NCBI GenBank assembly: GCA_009992175.1
Contig: JAACWA010000013.1
Location: forward strand, 1 to 36,652
Direction: 5' to 3'
DNA from: an archaeon
GTDB taxonomy: Archaea > Nanobdellota > Nanobdellia > Pacearchaeales > GW2011-AR1
Length of the DNA: 36,652 nt
Below the pieces are notes generated by a model, which saw only the letters and a list, made by a program, of their open reading frames with translations, was not told the DNA's origin and did no database searches. Shown piece by piece: positions 6,647 to 26,623 of the stretch (the stretch's first letter is position 1; each line of letters starts with the position of its first letter). Both the position numbers and the translations under genes were made by a program.

Positions 6647-8203
6647 ATGGATTTCCTAAAAAACCTCATTCCACGTGAATATCAAGAAAAAATTTCAGAA
6701 ACTTGCCTAAATAAAAATTGTTTAATTGTACTTCCAACTGGACTTGGAAAAACCCTAATTGCTTTAATGGTAACAATAGAAAGAATGAAAAAATTCCCTG
6801 GAAAAAAAGTTCTTTTTCTTGCTCCAACAAAACCTTTAGCTGAACAACACCTAATTTATTTCAAAAAAAATTTGCCTGAGCTTTTTGGGAGTCTTGAACT
6901 TTTTACTGGAGCAGTTTCGGCACCAAAAAGAAAAAAAATTTGGGATACAGGGGATATTATTTTTTCAACTCCCCAGTGTATTGCAAATGATCTCAAAAAA
7001 AAGCTTTATGATTTAACTGAAGTTTGCCTTTTAGTTGAAGATGAAGCTCACAGGTGTGTAAAAAATTATGATTATAATTTTGTTTCAAAAGTTTTTCAAA
7101 AAGAGTCTGAAAACCCAAGAATAATTGGAATGACTGCTTCTCCTGGAAGTGATTTTAATAAAATAAAAGAAATCTGTAAAAACCTTTCAATTGAAGAAGT
7201 TGAACTTAGAACAAGGGAGTCTCCTGATGTGAAAAAATATTTGCAAGAGCTTGAATTTGAAAAGAAAGTTGTAGAACTTGAAAAAGAATTTATTGAAATA
7301 AGAAATATTCTAAAAAGAATTTTTGATGAGTACACAGATGAACTAAAAATAAAAAACTTTCTTTTTGGACCAATAAACAAATTTTCACTTATCGAACTCC
7401 AAAGAAAAATTGGAGTCCAAATTAGTAGAAACCTCTCACATCCCTCAAGTTATTTTGCAATTTCACTCGTTTCTCAGGCAATAAAACTTTCTCATGCAAT
7501 TGATTTACTTGAAACTCAAACTCTTGAAAGCTTTCAAAAATATTTGAAAAAGCTCCTTGCTGAGGGTGAAGCAAGAAAATCTAAAGGAGTAACGAGACTA
7601 GTAAACAGAGACGATTTTAGACTAGCTTATAATAAAACTTCTTTCTTACTTGAAAAAGGGGAAGAACATCCAAAAGTAAAAGAGATAATTAGAGCAGTAA
7701 GGGATGAAAAAAATAAATCTCAAAATCCAAAAATTATAATTTTTACACAATTTAGAGAAACCGCAAATTTAATTTCAAAAAATATTAATAAAATTTCAGG
7801 AATAAAATCAAAAGTCTTTGTTGGACAAGCAAAAAAGGAAAGTGGGGGATTAAATCAAAAAGAACAAAAAGAAATAATTGATTCATTTTCTTCTGGAGAA
7901 ACTAATGTCCTTTGTGCAACTTGTATCGCAGAAGAAGGTCTTGACATTCCTGAAGTAGATTCAGTTATCCTTTATGAACCCGTTTCTTCAGCCATTCGTT
8001 CAATTCAAAGAAGAGGAAGAACTGCAAGACTCTCAAAAGGGAAATTAATCATGCTCTTAACCAAAGGAACCCGTGATGAATTTGCTTATTATGCGTCCCG
8101 TTCAAGAGAAAAAAAGATGGAAAAGTCAATTAAAAAAATAAAAGAAGAAATGAATTCAAAAAATTCTAAAGAAAAATCCAAAATCCAAAAAAGCCTATTT
8201 TAA
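6647..8203 (+). CDS. hef: Hef-type SF2 (DEAH) helicase, standalone helicase half
   Basis: 'VLPTGLGKTLIAL', 'LAPTKPLAEQH', 'VEDEAHRC', 'IGMTASPG', 'IIFTQFRETANLI', 'QRRGRTAR'. Confidence 0.9.
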   Translation: MDFLKNLIPREYQEKISETCLNKNCLIVLPTGLGKTLIALMVTIERMKKFPGKKVLFLAPTKPLAEQHLIYFKKNLPELFGSLELFTGAVSAPKRKKIWDTGDIIFSTPQCIANDLKKKLYDLTEVCLLVEDEAHRCVKNYDYNFVSKVFQKESENPRIIGMTASPGSDFNKIKEICKNLSIEEVELRTRESPDVKKYLQELEFEKKVVELEKEFIEIRNILKRIFDEYTDELKIKNFLFGPINKFSLIELQRKIGVQISRNLSHPSSYFAISLVSQAIKLSHAIDLLETQTLESFQKYLKKLLAEGEARKSKGVTRLVNRDDFRLAYNKTSFLLEKGEEHPKVKEIIRAVRDEKNKSQNPKIIIFTQFRETANLISKNINKISGIKSKVFVGQAKKESGGLNQKEQKEIIDSFSSGETNVLCATCIAEEGLDIPEVDSVILYEPVSSAIRSIQRRGRTARLSKGKLIMLLTKGTRDEFAYYASRSREKKMEKSIKKIKEEMNSKNSKEKSKIQKSLF

Positions 8204-8244
8204 ACTCCATAAATCTTTATTAAAGATTTTTTTTTAAATTAATT

Positions 8245-9486
8245 ATGACAAAAATAACCATTACAGGGGAAATTGGATCTGGAAAAACTACTATAGGAAA
8301 AGTTCTCGCAAAAAAAATAGATTGTAATTTTCTTTCTGTAGGAGGACTAAGAAGAGAAATTGCAAAAGAAAGGGGATTAACAATTCAAGAACTAAATAAA
8401 ATTGGTGAAACAGAAAATTGGACTGACAAAATTGTGGATAAAAAACAGATTGATCTTGGAAAAACCAAAAAAACTTTTATATTTGAGGGAAGACTTTCAT
8501 GGCATTTTATTCCAAACTCATTCAAAATTTTTCTTAAAGTAAATGAAGAAATTGGAGCAAAAAGAGTTTTATCCGAAAAGAGAGATTCTGAAGAAAAAAC
8601 AAATTTAATCAAAGAACAAATTAAAATAAATAAAAAAAGAAGTGAATCAGATAAATCAAGATATAAATCAATTTATGGAATTGAAAACTTTTTTGATAAA
8701 AAACATTTCGATTTAATAATAGACACCTCTTCCTTGACCCCCGAGGAAGTTGTAGAAATAATCTTAACTCAATTAAAAGATACAAAAAAATTTAAACAAA
8801 ATTCTTCTTCTTTTAATAACAAAATGTATGACATCTTTAGCAAAAAAGAACCAACTCCAATTCAAAAAAAAATAGGAGAAATTGTAGAAATAGATTTTAG
8901 AGAGAAAAATTCTCTTGTTCCATCTGAATTAATAAAAAAGGGGTTAACTATTGAATTCAAAAAGTTAGAAGTGGCAGATTATCTTGTGAAAGGGGTTGCT
9001 ATTGAAAGAAAAACTGCAAGGGACTTTTTTTCTTCCCTTTTTGACAAAAGACTTTTCTCACAACTAGAAAACTTGCAACAATATGAAAAAAGACTTTTGA
9101 TTATTGAAGGAAATTTATCAAAAGAAAATAGATTACATCCAAATGCACTAAAAGGCCTTCTTTTATCTATTGGTTTAGATTACCAAATACCCACAATTTT
9201 CACAAAAGATTGTGAAGAGACTGCAAATTATTTATTAATAATTGCAAAAAAAGAAAAAAAAGAATTGAGTATAAATCCAAAAAGAAAAAATCTCTCTTCA
9301 AAAGAAGAACTTCAGTTTATTTTGGAATCTTTTCCAAAAATTGGGCCTACAAAAGCCAAAAAGCTTCTTGGAAAATTTAAATCTCTAAAAAAAATATTCT
9401 CCTCAACAGAAAAACAATTAGAACAAATATTAGGAAAAAACTCAAAAGAATTTCTAGAAATTGTAACGAGAAAGTATTCTAATTGA
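8245..9486 (+). CDS. Fusion: archaeal cytidylate kinase-like domain (N) + XPF/ERCC4 nuclease and HhH (C)
   Basis: N: P-loop 'ITGEIGSGKTT', 'FIFEGRLSWH', 'KSRYKSIYGIENFFDKKHFDLIIDTSSLTPEEVVEIILTQL'; C: 'VEIDFREKNSLVPSELIKKG', 'LEVADYLVKGVAIERKTARDFFSSLFDKRLFSQ', HhH 'LESFPKIGPTKAKKLLGKFKSL'. Confidence 0.88.
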   Translation: MTKITITGEIGSGKTTIGKVLAKKIDCNFLSVGGLRREIAKERGLTIQELNKIGETENWTDKIVDKKQIDLGKTKKTFIFEGRLSWHFIPNSFKIFLKVNEEIGAKRVLSEKRDSEEKTNLIKEQIKINKKRSESDKSRYKSIYGIENFFDKKHFDLIIDTSSLTPEEVVEIILTQLKDTKKFKQNSSSFNNKMYDIFSKKEPTPIQKKIGEIVEIDFREKNSLVPSELIKKGLTIEFKKLEVADYLVKGVAIERKTARDFFSSLFDKRLFSQLENLQQYEKRLLIIEGNLSKENRLHPNALKGLLLSIGLDYQIPTIFTKDCEETANYLLIIAKKEKKELSINPKRKNLSSKEELQFILESFPKIGPTKAKKLLGKFKSLKKIFSSTEKQLEQILGKNSKEFLEIVTRKYSN

Positions 9487-20312: not shown

Positions 20313-21530
20313 TTATGCATAATTTATAGAGGAATTAATTATCTCTTTCGCCTTTTTTAGGATATCATTTGAAATAACCAATTTTATTTCTCTCATTCTT
20401 CCCCCCCTTCCTTTTGAAACTACCCTTACATTAATTATCCCTAACATATCAAACTCTTGAATAATGTCTCCTACTCTCCTCTGTGTAAGGGGTTCAATTT
20501 TATATGAGGTGCAGTGTTTATGATATGTATTATAAACTTCTCCTGTAAAAAAGGGAATTTTTTTCTTTTCTTCTGAAAGAAAAATTATTGAATTAAGGAC
20601 TACTTGAAACTGTTTGGGATGGTTTGTAATTACATCTAAAATTTTATCTCTCTCTATTTTACTTTTTGCTTCATCAATATGTTCAACCGTCACTTTTTTT
20701 GAATTTCCTCTTTCGGCTAATTCTCCTGCAACCCTTAACAAATCAAGGGCTCTCCTTGCATCTCCAGATTCTCTTGCTGCATAAGCCCCACATTTTGCCA
20801 CTACCCCCGGTTCCAAAACCTTTTCCTTAAAAGCTCCTTCAACCCTTTTCAAAAGAATATCTTGAATTTGTAAGGCATTATAAGGAGAAAAAATGATTTC
20901 TTCTTCAGACAAGGAACTTTTAACCCTAGGATCAATATTTTCTAAAAAAGTCAAATCGTTTGAAATTCCAACTAAAGAAATTTGGGATTTGGATAATTCA
21001 GAATTTAATCTTGTGAGGTTATATAAAAAATTATTTGAAATTTTTTTAACAAGTTGATCAACCTCATCCAAAATCAAGACTAATAGTTGTTTTTTGTCAT
21101 CAACCATCTCAATAAATTTACTATAAACGGCCCGAGTAGGTAAACCAGTCGAAGGGACCTCTCCTCCAAGTTGTCTAATTATTTCAGCCAAAATTCTATA
21201 TTCCGTATCTGCCACCTGTTTTAGTTTACAATTAATATATTGTATTTTTAATTCAAATCCAGAATCCAACGCTTTTCTCATTCTTTTTTCAAGGGCCTCT
21301 TGAACTTTAAAAATAGAAAGTGTTTTTCCTGTTCCGGTATTTCCATATAAAAAAAGGTTACTTGTCTTTTCTCCTCTTAAAACTGGTGCAAGAATCGAAG
21401 CAATTTGATTTATCTCTTTCTCTCTATGGGGTATTGTTTCTGGTTTATAGTTTGATTGTAATAAAGATTTGTCTTTGAAAATAATATTTTTATCAAATGA
21501 GTCAAATATTTTATCTAATTCTGCATCCAT
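20313..21530 (-). CDS. cdc6: Orc1/Cdc6 replication initiator
   Basis: 'NLFLYGNTGTGKTLSIFKV', 'LVLILDEVDQLVKK', 'YAARESGDARRALDLLRVAGELAE', C-terminal winged helix. Confidence 0.95.
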   Translation of the reverse strand: MDAELDKIFDSFDKNIIFKDKSLLQSNYKPETIPHREKEINQIASILAPVLRGEKTSNLFLYGNTGTGKTLSIFKVQEALEKRMRKALDSGFELKIQYINCKLKQVADTEYRILAEIIRQLGGEVPSTGLPTRAVYSKFIEMVDDKKQLLVLILDEVDQLVKKISNNFLYNLTRLNSELSKSQISLVGISNDLTFLENIDPRVKSSLSEEEIIFSPYNALQIQDILLKRVEGAFKEKVLEPGVVAKCGAYAARESGDARRALDLLRVAGELAERGNSKKVTVEHIDEAKSKIERDKILDVITNHPKQFQVVLNSIIFLSEEKKKIPFFTGEVYNTYHKHCTSYKIEPLTQRRVGDIIQEFDMLGIINVRVVSKGRGGRMREIKLVISNDILKKAKEIINSSINYA

Positions 21531-21584
21531 TTTTTTGTTTTTTTGTTTTTTATTTTATTTAATTAATCCTTCTAAAGTGTGACA

Positions 21585-21840
21585 CGTTGATTTCCTTTGG
21601 AAGTTGTCCTTTTTATTAAGAGTTTCAAGGAGAAAAAAAGAATTACTTATATAAAAGATTATGACTACTCAAAAAGAAAAACACCTTTATTTCTTATGGA
21701 AATTTGAATTTTTTCAAAAAATTCTTTTTTTAATTTTTCTTTTTTATAAATTATTTTCCTAATTTTTATATTCTATATATATAATAATATAATTTATTTA
21801 TATTATATATAATAATATAATTTATTTATATTATATATAT
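21585..21840. other. Candidate replication origin (ORB-like motif plus A+T-only unwinding element)
   Basis: Adjacent to orc1/cdc6; 'CTTCCAAAGGAAATCAA' on minus strand (ORB-like); A+T-only tract. Confidence 0.55.
21781..21836. repeat. Two perfect tandem copies of a 28-bp A+T-only unit, each with an inverted repeat ATAATATA/TATATTAT
   Basis: ataataatataatttatttatattatat x2, read directly. Confidence 0.95.
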
Positions 21841-22127
21841 ACTCTAAACCCTAAATTTTTTTAAATTAAATTAAAACAATCAAAAAAAGAAAAAACTTAA
21901 AAATAAAAACTCCAATAGAAATGAAGGGGTGAGAGTCCTTTCTTCCCTCTTTTTGAGGAACAATCTCCTAAATCAACTTTTATTTATATACTTTTTAATT
22001 AATTATTTAGTTACACTTTTTTATTTACCTTAAACTTTTATTAAATTTGAAAATAGTTTAAAAAAATCATTTAAAGCATGTTCTTGTTTAGAGATAAATT
22101 TATAAATTAACTCTCTTTAAGAAAGAC

Positions 22128-22388
22128 ATGCAATCAGAAAAAATGCCCTTTAATTCCTTGCTGGGAAAAATGATAGTAACAAAAGAAGGAAAAAGATTAG
22201 GTTTTGTAAAAGATACTTCTTTTGAAACAAAATCAGGAGAATTAATCAATCTGGTGTTAAAAGATTCAACAATCTATACTAAAAATCTTAATCTTGAAAG
22301 GTCAAGCGAGAATGAACTTTTGATTCCTTATTCCTCTATAATTGCAATTGGTGATTTTGTAATTGTTTCTGAAGAAGATTTAATTTAA
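22128..22388 (+). CDS. PRC-barrel domain protein
   Basis: 'FNSLLGKMIVTKEGKRLGFVKDTSFETKSGELINLVL...LLIPYSSIIAIGDFVIVSEED'. Confidence 0.8.
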   Translation: MQSEKMPFNSLLGKMIVTKEGKRLGFVKDTSFETKSGELINLVLKDSTIYTKNLNLERSSENELLIPYSSIIAIGDFVIVSEEDLI

Positions 22389-22435
22389 TTTTAAACACAA
22401 ATATTTAAAAACAAAGATTTTTTATTAATTTTAAG

Positions 22436-23213: not shown

Positions 23214-23915
23214 ATGGATGAAATAAAAAATGCTTTTAGAAAAGTTAAAGAGGACTTTGATGATCTAAATAAAAAATTTATTGAAATGAAGGATGAAATC
23301 TTTCAAACAAGGGAAGGATTAATAGAAGTGATAAATTCTATTTGTTCTTTAAATAATAAATTTAATTCTTTTAAAGATAAAGAGATTAAGACAGAAGAAG
23401 AGCAATTTAAGTCAGTTTTTACTGAAAATAAGACAAACCCTCTCCATTTTAAGCTTAGAAATGCCCAAAATTTAGGTATTTCCATAGGAAATGAAGGGGT
23501 TCAGACAGACAGACAGACAGACAGACAAACAAACAAAAGGCTCTTTTCAGAGGGAGAAATTCCTTCTTGGAAAGATCAAAACTCTTTTGAAGAGTTTTCT
23601 GGACTTTTAGAATCCCTTGACGGATTAAAGAAGGAAATAAGGCTAAAATTCAAAAGGTTGACTAATCAAGAGATGGTTATTTTTTCAGCAATTTACCAAA
23701 TGGAAGAAGAAAAAGGGTTTTCCGACTATAAGTCTCTTTCTAACAAACTTTCTTTGACTGAGAGTTCTATAAGGGACTATGTACGAAGATTGATTTTCAA
23801 AGGAATTCCTCTTGAAAAAAAGAAGATAAATAACAAAGAAATACGCCTTTTTGTGTCAAAAAGCTTGAAAAAAATTGCATCCTTAAACACCATATTAAAG
23901 CTAATTGAGCTCTAA
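23214..23915 (+). CDS. Coiled coil + 'QTDRQTDRQTNK' linker + C-terminal winged HTH
   Basis: N-terminal coiled coil; C-terminal 'LTNQEMVIFSAIYQMEEEKGFSDYKSLSNKLSLTESSIRDYVRRLIFKGI'. Confidence 0.75.
   Translation: MDEIKNAFRKVKEDFDDLNKKFIEMKDEIFQTREGLIEVINSICSLNNKFNSFKDKEIKTEEEQFKSVFTENKTNPLHFKLRNAQNLGISIGNEGVQTDRQTDRQTNKRLFSEGEIPSWKDQNSFEEFSGLLESLDGLKKEIRLKFKRLTNQEMVIFSAIYQMEEEKGFSDYKSLSNKLSLTESSIRDYVRRLIFKGIPLEKKKINNKEIRLFVSKSLKKIASLNTILKLIEL
23502..23537 (+). repeat. Tetranucleotide microsatellite (CAGA)6(CAAA)3 inside a coding region
   Basis: Read directly. Confidence 0.97.
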
Positions 23916-24056: not shown

Positions 24057-24797
24057 CTAACTCTCCTTTTTCTGTTTTTCACCACCTTTTTTCCCACTTT
24101 TTACTCTCACTTTTTGCTTTTTGAGTAGTTTTTCTTTAACTTTCTCAGGAATATACACCCTTTTCTTACCATTCTTTTCAACTACTTCTTCAATCAAACT
24201 CTCACTTTTCGATTTTATCGTGTTTATTTGGCCTCTTATGGTTGATTTCTCTTTATTTAGCATTGCTGCAAGGTCTTCATAGCTAAGCTTCATGTCAGTA
24301 TTTAAAAGTAAAAACAAGATTGCTCTCTCTGTAACTGAAAAACTACTTAAATTTGGTGTTTGAACATCTGTTTGAACATCTGTTTGAACATCAAAAACAG
24401 TTGTTTGTTTGTTGGACAGAGGCTTAGTTGTTTTAAACAGCCTGTTTGAACGGCCGTTTGTGTTTAAATCAACAAAGACTGAAAGGGTGTTTTTTATTTC
24501 TTCTATTTCTTCTTTTATCGACGACAAATTCTCTTTTAGGGTGTTTATTTCATCTTTATGAACTTTTTTTTCAGAATCTAGGTGTTTAATCCAATCCCCA
24601 ACAGAAAGAATGTCCTTTTTTACTGCTTCAAAACCTTTTTTTGTTTCTTCTCTTACCTCTTCAACAATTTTTTTTGGTCTAAAAAATCCGAACATACCTA
24701 TTTCAAGAAAAGTTTGTTTAAAAATGTTTCTTTTAATGACGGGAAAATTCTTCTTTTTCCTCCTTTTTTTCGGCCTTTTTTCATCTTTTTTGTTCAA
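24057..24797 (-). CDS. Basic N-terminus + coiled coil + 'DVQTDVQTDVQT' linker + winged HTH (start may be internal MFGFFRPKK at ~24695)
   Basis: 'SVTERAILFLLLNTDMKLSYEDLAAMLNKEKSTIRGQINTIKSK' wHTH; architecture parallel to 23214-23915. Confidence 0.75.
   Translation of the reverse strand: MNKKDEKRPKKRRKKKNFPVIKRNIFKQTFLEIGMFGFFRPKKIVEEVREETKKGFEAVKKDILSVGDWIKHLDSEKKVHKDEINTLKENLSSIKEEIEEIKNTLSVFVDLNTNGRSNRLFKTTKPLSNKQTTVFDVQTDVQTDVQTPNLSSFSVTERAILFLLLNTDMKLSYEDLAAMLNKEKSTIRGQINTIKSKSESLIEEVVEKNGKKRVYIPEKVKEKLLKKQKVRVKSGKKGGEKQKKES
24357..24392 (-). repeat. Three perfect tandem copies of a 12-nt unit (TGTTTGAACATC)
   Basis: Read directly; encodes the repeated (V)QTD linker on the minus strand. 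Confidence 0.97.
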
Positions 24798-25972: not shown

Positions 25973-26623
25973 ATGAAGGAAATAATTATCAAGGGAGCAA
26001 GAGAGCATAACCTAAAAAACATAAGTCTTACTCTTCCAAAAGAAAAGTTTATTGTTTTGACTGGACTTTCAGGTTCAGGAAAATCAACCTTAGCATTTGA
26101 CGCCCTATATGCTGAAGGACAAAGAAGGGATGTTGAAAGTCTTTCTTCTTATGCAAGGCAATTCATTGGAATGATGGACAAGCCAGATGTAGATTCTATT
26201 GAGGGATTAAGCCCTGCAATTTCAATTGAGCAAAAAACAACTTCAAAAAATCCTCGTTCTACTGTTGGAACTGTTACAGAGGTTTATGATTACTTGAGAC
26301 TTCTTTATGCTAGAATTGGAGTTCCATATTGTCCTGAACACAATGAGCCAATCCTTTCTCAAACTCCAGAAGAAATTTCGAAAAAAATTCAAAGAAAGTT
26401 CAAGGAAGAAAACAATATCACCCCAAAAACAATAATTAAACCAATAAAAGAAAAAGTGGTTGAGGTAAGTGATGTAGACCACATACCTAAAAAAGAGATT
26501 CCAAACCTTTTAATTGAGTTAGAAAAAGATATGAAACTCTGTGCCGAAAAACTCGACTTTGAGAACGTAATAAGAATAAAAAATAAAATAAAAAATCTAC
26601 AAAAAAGATTAAATAAAAATTAA
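25973..26623 (+). pseudogene. Chimeric uvrA(5')-uvrB(3') ORF: UvrA N-terminal Walker A region joined in frame to UvrB C-terminal/UVR domain
   Basis: UvrA: '[59 protein letters not shown]...[30 protein letters not shown]'; UvrB: '[65 protein letters not shown]'. Confidence 0.85.

Follow-up and report, generated by a model that had tools for sequence, protein, structure and literature searches.

Does a reading frame that carries a nucleotide kinase and a DNA-repair nuclease in one polypeptide indicate that nucleotide phosphorylation and DNA cleavage are coupled, or does it join two activities that otherwise have little to do with each other? The question is raised by a gene in the window, i.e., the whole 36,652-nt stretch of archaeal DNA that was analyzed. 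An earlier note, made from the letters of the sequence, had described it as a cytidylate kinase (Cmk) fused to an XPF/ERCC4 nuclease with a helix-hairpin-helix (HhH) region, and had raised a link between phosphorylation and structure-specific cleavage. With somewhat more confidence than doubt, we favor a bifunctional protein that arose from merged adjacent genes and in which a salvage kinase and the nuclease of a split Hef are largely independent.

Architecture of the fusion protein

The 413-aa ORF runs uninterrupted on the plus strand from the ATG at 8245 to the TGA at 9484–9486, a single frame without internal stops as the earlier note had reported. It encodes a CMP kinase (residues 1–178), a linker (179–214) and a Hef/XPF-type ERCC4-HhH2 nuclease (215–412), and the known motifs of both halves are all intact (Table 1). 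The domain search proposed in that note matched Cytidylate_kin2, ERCC4 and HHH_5.

Table 1. Features of the fusion gene and its upstream neighbor, in window positions.
Feature	Position	Strand	Basis
Helicase half of split Hef, 518 aa, C-terminus ...KIQKSLF	6647..8203	+	NF010337 571.6 bits
41-bp spacer, probable own promoter	8204..8244	+	TATA-like TTTATTAAAG at 8216-8225, -29 from ATG
Archaeal CMP/dCMP kinase domain, residues 1-178	8245..8778	+	TIGR02173, Pfam, NMP-kinase fold by AlphaFold2/Foldseek
Linker, residues 179-214, predicted disordered	8779..8886	+	pLDDT about 23-32 across most
TTTAAA TATA-like box, putative internal promoter for Xpf alone	8791..8796	+	33 nt before internal ATG
Retained ancestral xpf start, M194-YDIFSKK	8824..8847	+	Motif at N-termini of the family's standalone Xpfs
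ERCC4 nuclease domain, residues 216-330: IDFRE, ADY, ERKTARD	8890..9234	+	PF02732 2e-25
Helix-hairpin-helix region, residues 360-397	9322..9435	+	HHH_5 1.7e-5; Aeropyrum XPF alignment to residue 406

For the kinase half, Pfam Cytidylate_kin2 matched residues 4–162 (E 5e-16, over cut-off), and TIGR02173, which models archaeal (d)CMP kinases, scored 105.0 bits, or 107.8 with the domain taken by itself, where the cut-off is 102.1; the alignment spans the whole model (positions 2–168 of 169). These two matches confirm the N-terminal Cmk. The motifs found were the P-loop GEIGSGKTT, EGRL, KKRSESDKSRYKSIYG and LIIDTS; the P-loop, the GR motif and the RY arginine (SRYKSIYG) are kept. AlphaFold2, run on a five-sequence alignment, modeled the kinase fold mostly with confidence (pLDDT mostly 75–90) and the HhH helices fairly confidently (about 65–80), with very low confidence in the linker from residue 179 on and a poor model of the ERCC4 domain due to the shallow alignment. 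In a Foldseek search, the top hits had the NMP-kinase fold and included CMP kinases.

Among the five fusions described below, the window copy is the only one that keeps both EGR and the RY arginine. In the other four, EGW replaces EGR and the RY arginine is missing (QF/GF), and several unfused relatives likewise have EGW without this arginine. Because the arginine in EGR aligns with the one in the bacterial DGRD motif, EGW may alter substrate use, and the kinases of the four EGW fusions may be non-standard CMP kinases. An EGW (or DGW) subtype without the RY arginine was also seen in the kinases of loci L038, L039, L040, L041, L042, L045, L048 and L049; it still matches the archaeal CMP kinase model and possibly has a changed substrate specificity.

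The nuclease half matched Pfam ERCC4 (PF02732) with 89.6 bits against a cut-off of 24 and contains the DxRE and ERKxxxD motifs (IDFRE and ERKTARD), the latter conserved in 26/26 homologues compared. The HHH_5 match was slightly under cut-off, and XPF and Hef models align through the same region, so the assignment as ERCC4 nuclease plus HhH holds. The half also matched the C-terminal part of the NCBIfam Hef model NF010337 (1e-57) and, in the PDB, the Pyrococcus Hef nuclease domain 1j22 (1e-25) and Aeropyrum XPF 2bgw (5e-24), which aligns across residues 214–406. By family, it would be a structure-specific nuclease that acts together with the Hef helicase on forks, flaps and nicks. A separate helicase gene indeed ends 41 bp before the fusion ORF, as the sequence had first suggested; it covers positions 17–519 of the 781 in NF010337 and is the upstream neighbor conserved across the genus. 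With helicase and nuclease in separate ORFs (6647–8203 and 8245–9486), the locus does not encode a single-chain Hef, and the fusion scores 195 bits on NF010337 against a cut-off of 610. In this family, Hef helicases often end in QK.L(F), which resembles a PCNA-binding motif (window 8160–8203), and Xpfs start with [FY][DN]IFSK (8824–8847); both may be partner-binding peptides of the split Hef.

The linker suggests a further product, a standalone Xpf made besides the fusion through an internal linker promoter and a leaderless start at M194. We consider this possible though rather unlikely from the signals present. M194-YDIF is kept in 5/5 fusions while the remaining linker varies, the invariant MYDIF is of the motif type that starts standalone Xpfs, and TTTAAA lies at −33 in four fusions and at −30 in one. 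Within the genus, TTTAAA or TTTATA at −34 to −26 precedes 33/84 real starts vs 15/669 internal Met codons. On the other hand, such boxes usually lie at −29 to −27 rather than at −33, TTTAAA is the commonest Phe-Lys coding here (71/151), and the five linkers may have common ancestry. A standalone Xpf is compatible with the merged-gene explanation, since it alters the products made and not the job of each half. Upstream of the gene itself, the TATA-like element CATAAATCTTTATTAAA is conserved, as such or in close variants, in G000, G001, G003, G004, G005 and G010.

Some features elsewhere in the window deserve mention. A 216-aa ORF at 25973–26623 resembles UvrA (ABC P-loop region) at its N-terminus and UvrB in a C-terminal stretch, with a UVR motif; it looks like what is left after a deletion fused uvrA to uvrB, or like a join made in assembly. 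About 900 bp at 21531–22435, very AT-rich, without clear genes and with 28/29-bp repeats, adjoin, just upstream, an ORF read by eye as Orc1/Cdc6 (20313–21530), with the small and large subunits of DNA polymerase D, also read by eye, as the next ORFs; the region is a possible replication origin. Short in-frame tandem repeats occur in two neighboring genes of opposite orientation, CAGA x8.5 at 23502–23535 (encoding QTDRQTDR) and a 12-bp unit x3 at 24357–24392 (QTDVQTDV).

Distribution and history of the locus

The scan of related genomes that the earlier note had called for identified the same architecture in four further genomes of the genus, i.e., in 5 of 11 (G000, G001, G003, G005 and G010). 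A contig scan with two peptide patterns retrieved four fusions and one unfused relative. The four additional proteins are 54–59% identical to that of the window, have no internal stops, and are from MAGs of different projects that are labeled as Nanoarchaeota/Pacearchaeota or as archaea. An assembly or sequencing artefact, i.e., a lost stop joining two genes that are separate ORFs in the close relatives G004 and G006, has a negligible chance and was rejected: the full-length fusion is present in five independent MAGs, stop-free throughout the linker in all, with linker lengths that differ by whole codons, which for practical purposes excludes a missed stop or frameshift near codon 180.

No further fusions were found among the 191 family genomes and 211 order genomes searched, nor in a 384-genome class sample or a 382-genome phylum sample (overlapping sets), although weak distant fusions could be missed in the latter two because of their strict threshold (E 1e-62). 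A search of open-licence papers for cytidylate kinase, XPF and fusion protein combined with archaea gave no hits. The domain architecture is apparently new and limited to one Pacearchaeota genus.

The usual arrangement among the family members inspected is a split Hef in which the helicase gene is directly followed by an xpf gene; without a kinase, the two lie a few bp apart or overlap (G011, G012, G021, G023, G094, G103, G191). In six genera, nucleotide-metabolism genes are located between the Hef halves: cmk alone (G006, G004, G176), an IMPDH-like gene plus cmk (G015), or cmk joined to a second domain of ~185 aa that we term NDT-like, with or without an IMPDH-like gene (G002, G007, G008, G018, G104, G189). 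Where cmk precedes xpf as a gene of its own (G004, G006, G015, G176), the two are adjacent overlapping ORFs, with an overlap of 8 nt in G006 and about 11 nt in G004. Because insert-free members exist within the same genera (G103 beside G104; G186 and G191 beside G189), the insert appears to be gained or lost easily. The earlier note had seen the kinase in the place of the helicase. A more fitting account is that Hef was split before a kinase gene came to lie between its halves, and that this gene was subsequently joined to that of the nuclease.

Proteins with a CMP-kinase-like domain and the second domain of ~185 aa are encoded between the Hef halves at L043:4954–6099, L044:6184–7377, L046:7738–8844 (minus strand), L048:5582–6685, L105:5652–6776 and L106:6309–7406, often accompanied by an IMPDH-like gene. 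The second domain shows the motifs FYLAHPTES..., NPFFE and G.IVI.D..WTWGTP.E. It had no match in Pfam, and a PDB profile search gave weak matches to nucleoside deoxyribosyltransferases (E 0.17–0.4), so the name NDT-like is tentative. AlphaFold2 without an alignment gave a pLDDT of 37 for the Cmk/NDT-like protein.

The two halves of the fusion have different histories. A species tree from flanking genes (1571 columns) contained a nine-species clade in which G000 and G006 are sisters, opposite G003, G005, G010, G001, G004, G002 and G008. The fused species do not form a clade in this tree (AU p 8e-39). The nuclease tree broadly follows the species tree; the kinase tree distributes the fused kinases over about three lineages, with G000 apart, G001/G003/G005 in one group, and the G010 kinase grouping with the G015 and G018 kinases of two other genera. 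Between the sisters G000 and G006, 67% is shared in the nuclease and 46% in the kinase. Because the fused species form no clade and their kinases fall into about three lineages, the kinase has been exchanged independently of the nuclease. The linker features common to all five fusions point to a single fusion, after which kinases were exchanged and some genes split again. Several separate fusion origins are a possible alternative, in line with the lack of a single fused clade in the gene trees; the AU test for such a clade gave p 0.08 for the kinase and p 0.016 for the nuclease. Intermediates of this history can still be seen in relatives, from split Hef through an inserted kinase and overlapping genes to the fusion and exchange of the kinase.

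Role of the kinase and relation between the halves

A second standalone cmk, which the earlier note had proposed to look for, was not detected: within the assembly, which is 83.7% complete, no Cytidylate_kin2 match other than the window's passed the cut-off. Nucleoside diphosphate kinase (NDK) is present in the genome. CTP synthase was not found in this assembly; at that completeness, it or a second Cmk could have been missed. In the genus, all ten kinase-bearing genomes are without CTP synthase, and the single kinase-free genome, G009, has it. At the family level, CTP synthase occurs in 42 of 191 genomes and in 0 of the 15 whose Hef site includes cmk (one-sided Fisher test, p 0.02, which ignores relatedness); a strong cmk match and CTP synthase occur together in 2 genomes vs 4.8 expected (p 0.09), i.e., they are weakly exclusive. 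Since NDK is present, CTP synthase was not found and no other Cmk was detected, the simplest role of the kinase is probably ordinary salvage of CMP to CTP. The cytidine nucleotides of this DPANN lineage seem to rely on CMP salvage by a kinase within a DNA-repair protein.

In the merged-gene explanation, the N-terminal half would act as a CMP/dCMP kinase that makes CDP and dCDP by salvage, and NDK, to which we assign the last step because no CTP synthase was found, would complete the conversion to CTP. The C-terminal half would dimerize and cut branched or fork DNA, presumably acting in trans with the helicase, whose separate gene lies just upstream. A flexible linker of ~35 residues would leave the two activities largely independent, and the joining of the halves may mainly fix their co-expression.

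The link between phosphorylation and cleavage raised by the earlier note was not supported. The near relatives G004, G006, G015 and G176 have separate adjacent genes, kinase halves have passed from one lineage to another whereas the nuclease largely keeps to the species, and the absence of CTP synthase together with the presence of NDK gives the kinase an ordinary salvage role. Coupling might take the form of a tethered kinase that phosphorylates CMP or dCMP released by repair or fork exonucleases, or of a nuclease regulated by substrate binding to the kinase; we find either form improbable. Adjacency of cmk and xpf does recur in six genera and the fusion in five species, and this linkage, with a fusion kept across long divergence, could reflect selection for the link. 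However, close relatives lack the fusion (G004, G006) or any cmk (G009), the same site is elsewhere occupied by IMPDH-like and NDT-like genes, and ERCC4 nucleases are not known to give mononucleotides as their main product, which also counts against coupling. In a wider version, to which we give equally little credence, the fusion would be a repair module in which a Hef-tethered CMP/dCMP kinase recycles nucleotides at stalled forks or senses them there, within a family-wide tendency for enzymes of the nucleotide pool (Cmk, Cmk with the NDT-like domain, IMPDH-like) to be placed between the Hef halves. If coupling were true, it would be, to our knowledge, the first case in which NMP phosphorylation is directly linked to fork cleavage.

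Comparison with known systems

For Thermococcus Hef, a connection with stalled forks and with the repair of crosslinks has been reported, and the disordered region between its helicase and nuclease binds the 3′-5′ exonuclease HAN (PMC5717133). The place of this HAN-binding linker is taken here by a gene boundary and the kinase, a correspondence that would fit coupling; on the other hand, HAN has been reported in Euryarchaeota only (PMC5717133).

With the archaeal (d)CMP kinase of TIGR02173, the kinase half agrees in its full-length match over the trusted cut-off and in its P-loop, GR and RY motifs. Whereas that model describes a stand-alone protein of 169 residues, the window kinase is part of a fusion. 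Cmk fusions as such are not unusual, since NCBIfam has models for Cmk-Der (PRK09518), PanC-Cmk (PRK13477) and AroA-Cmk (PRK11860), which likewise join Cmk to an unrelated partner; these partners are a GTPase or metabolic enzymes, whereas the partner here is a DNA-repair nuclease.

Euryarchaeal Hef (P. furiosus, T. kodakarensis, H. volcanii) combines helicase and XPF nuclease in one chain. The window protein resembles it in that its nuclease and HhH match Hef best (NF010337, 1j22) and a helicase homologue is adjacent, but here the helicase and nuclease are in separate genes and the nuclease is joined to a kinase. With the crenarchaeal short Xpf (Aeropyrum pernix 2bgw) it shares the ERCC4 and HhH2 domains and the lack of a helicase in the chain, and it differs from that enzyme by its N-terminal kinase and the Hef-type helicase gene next door.
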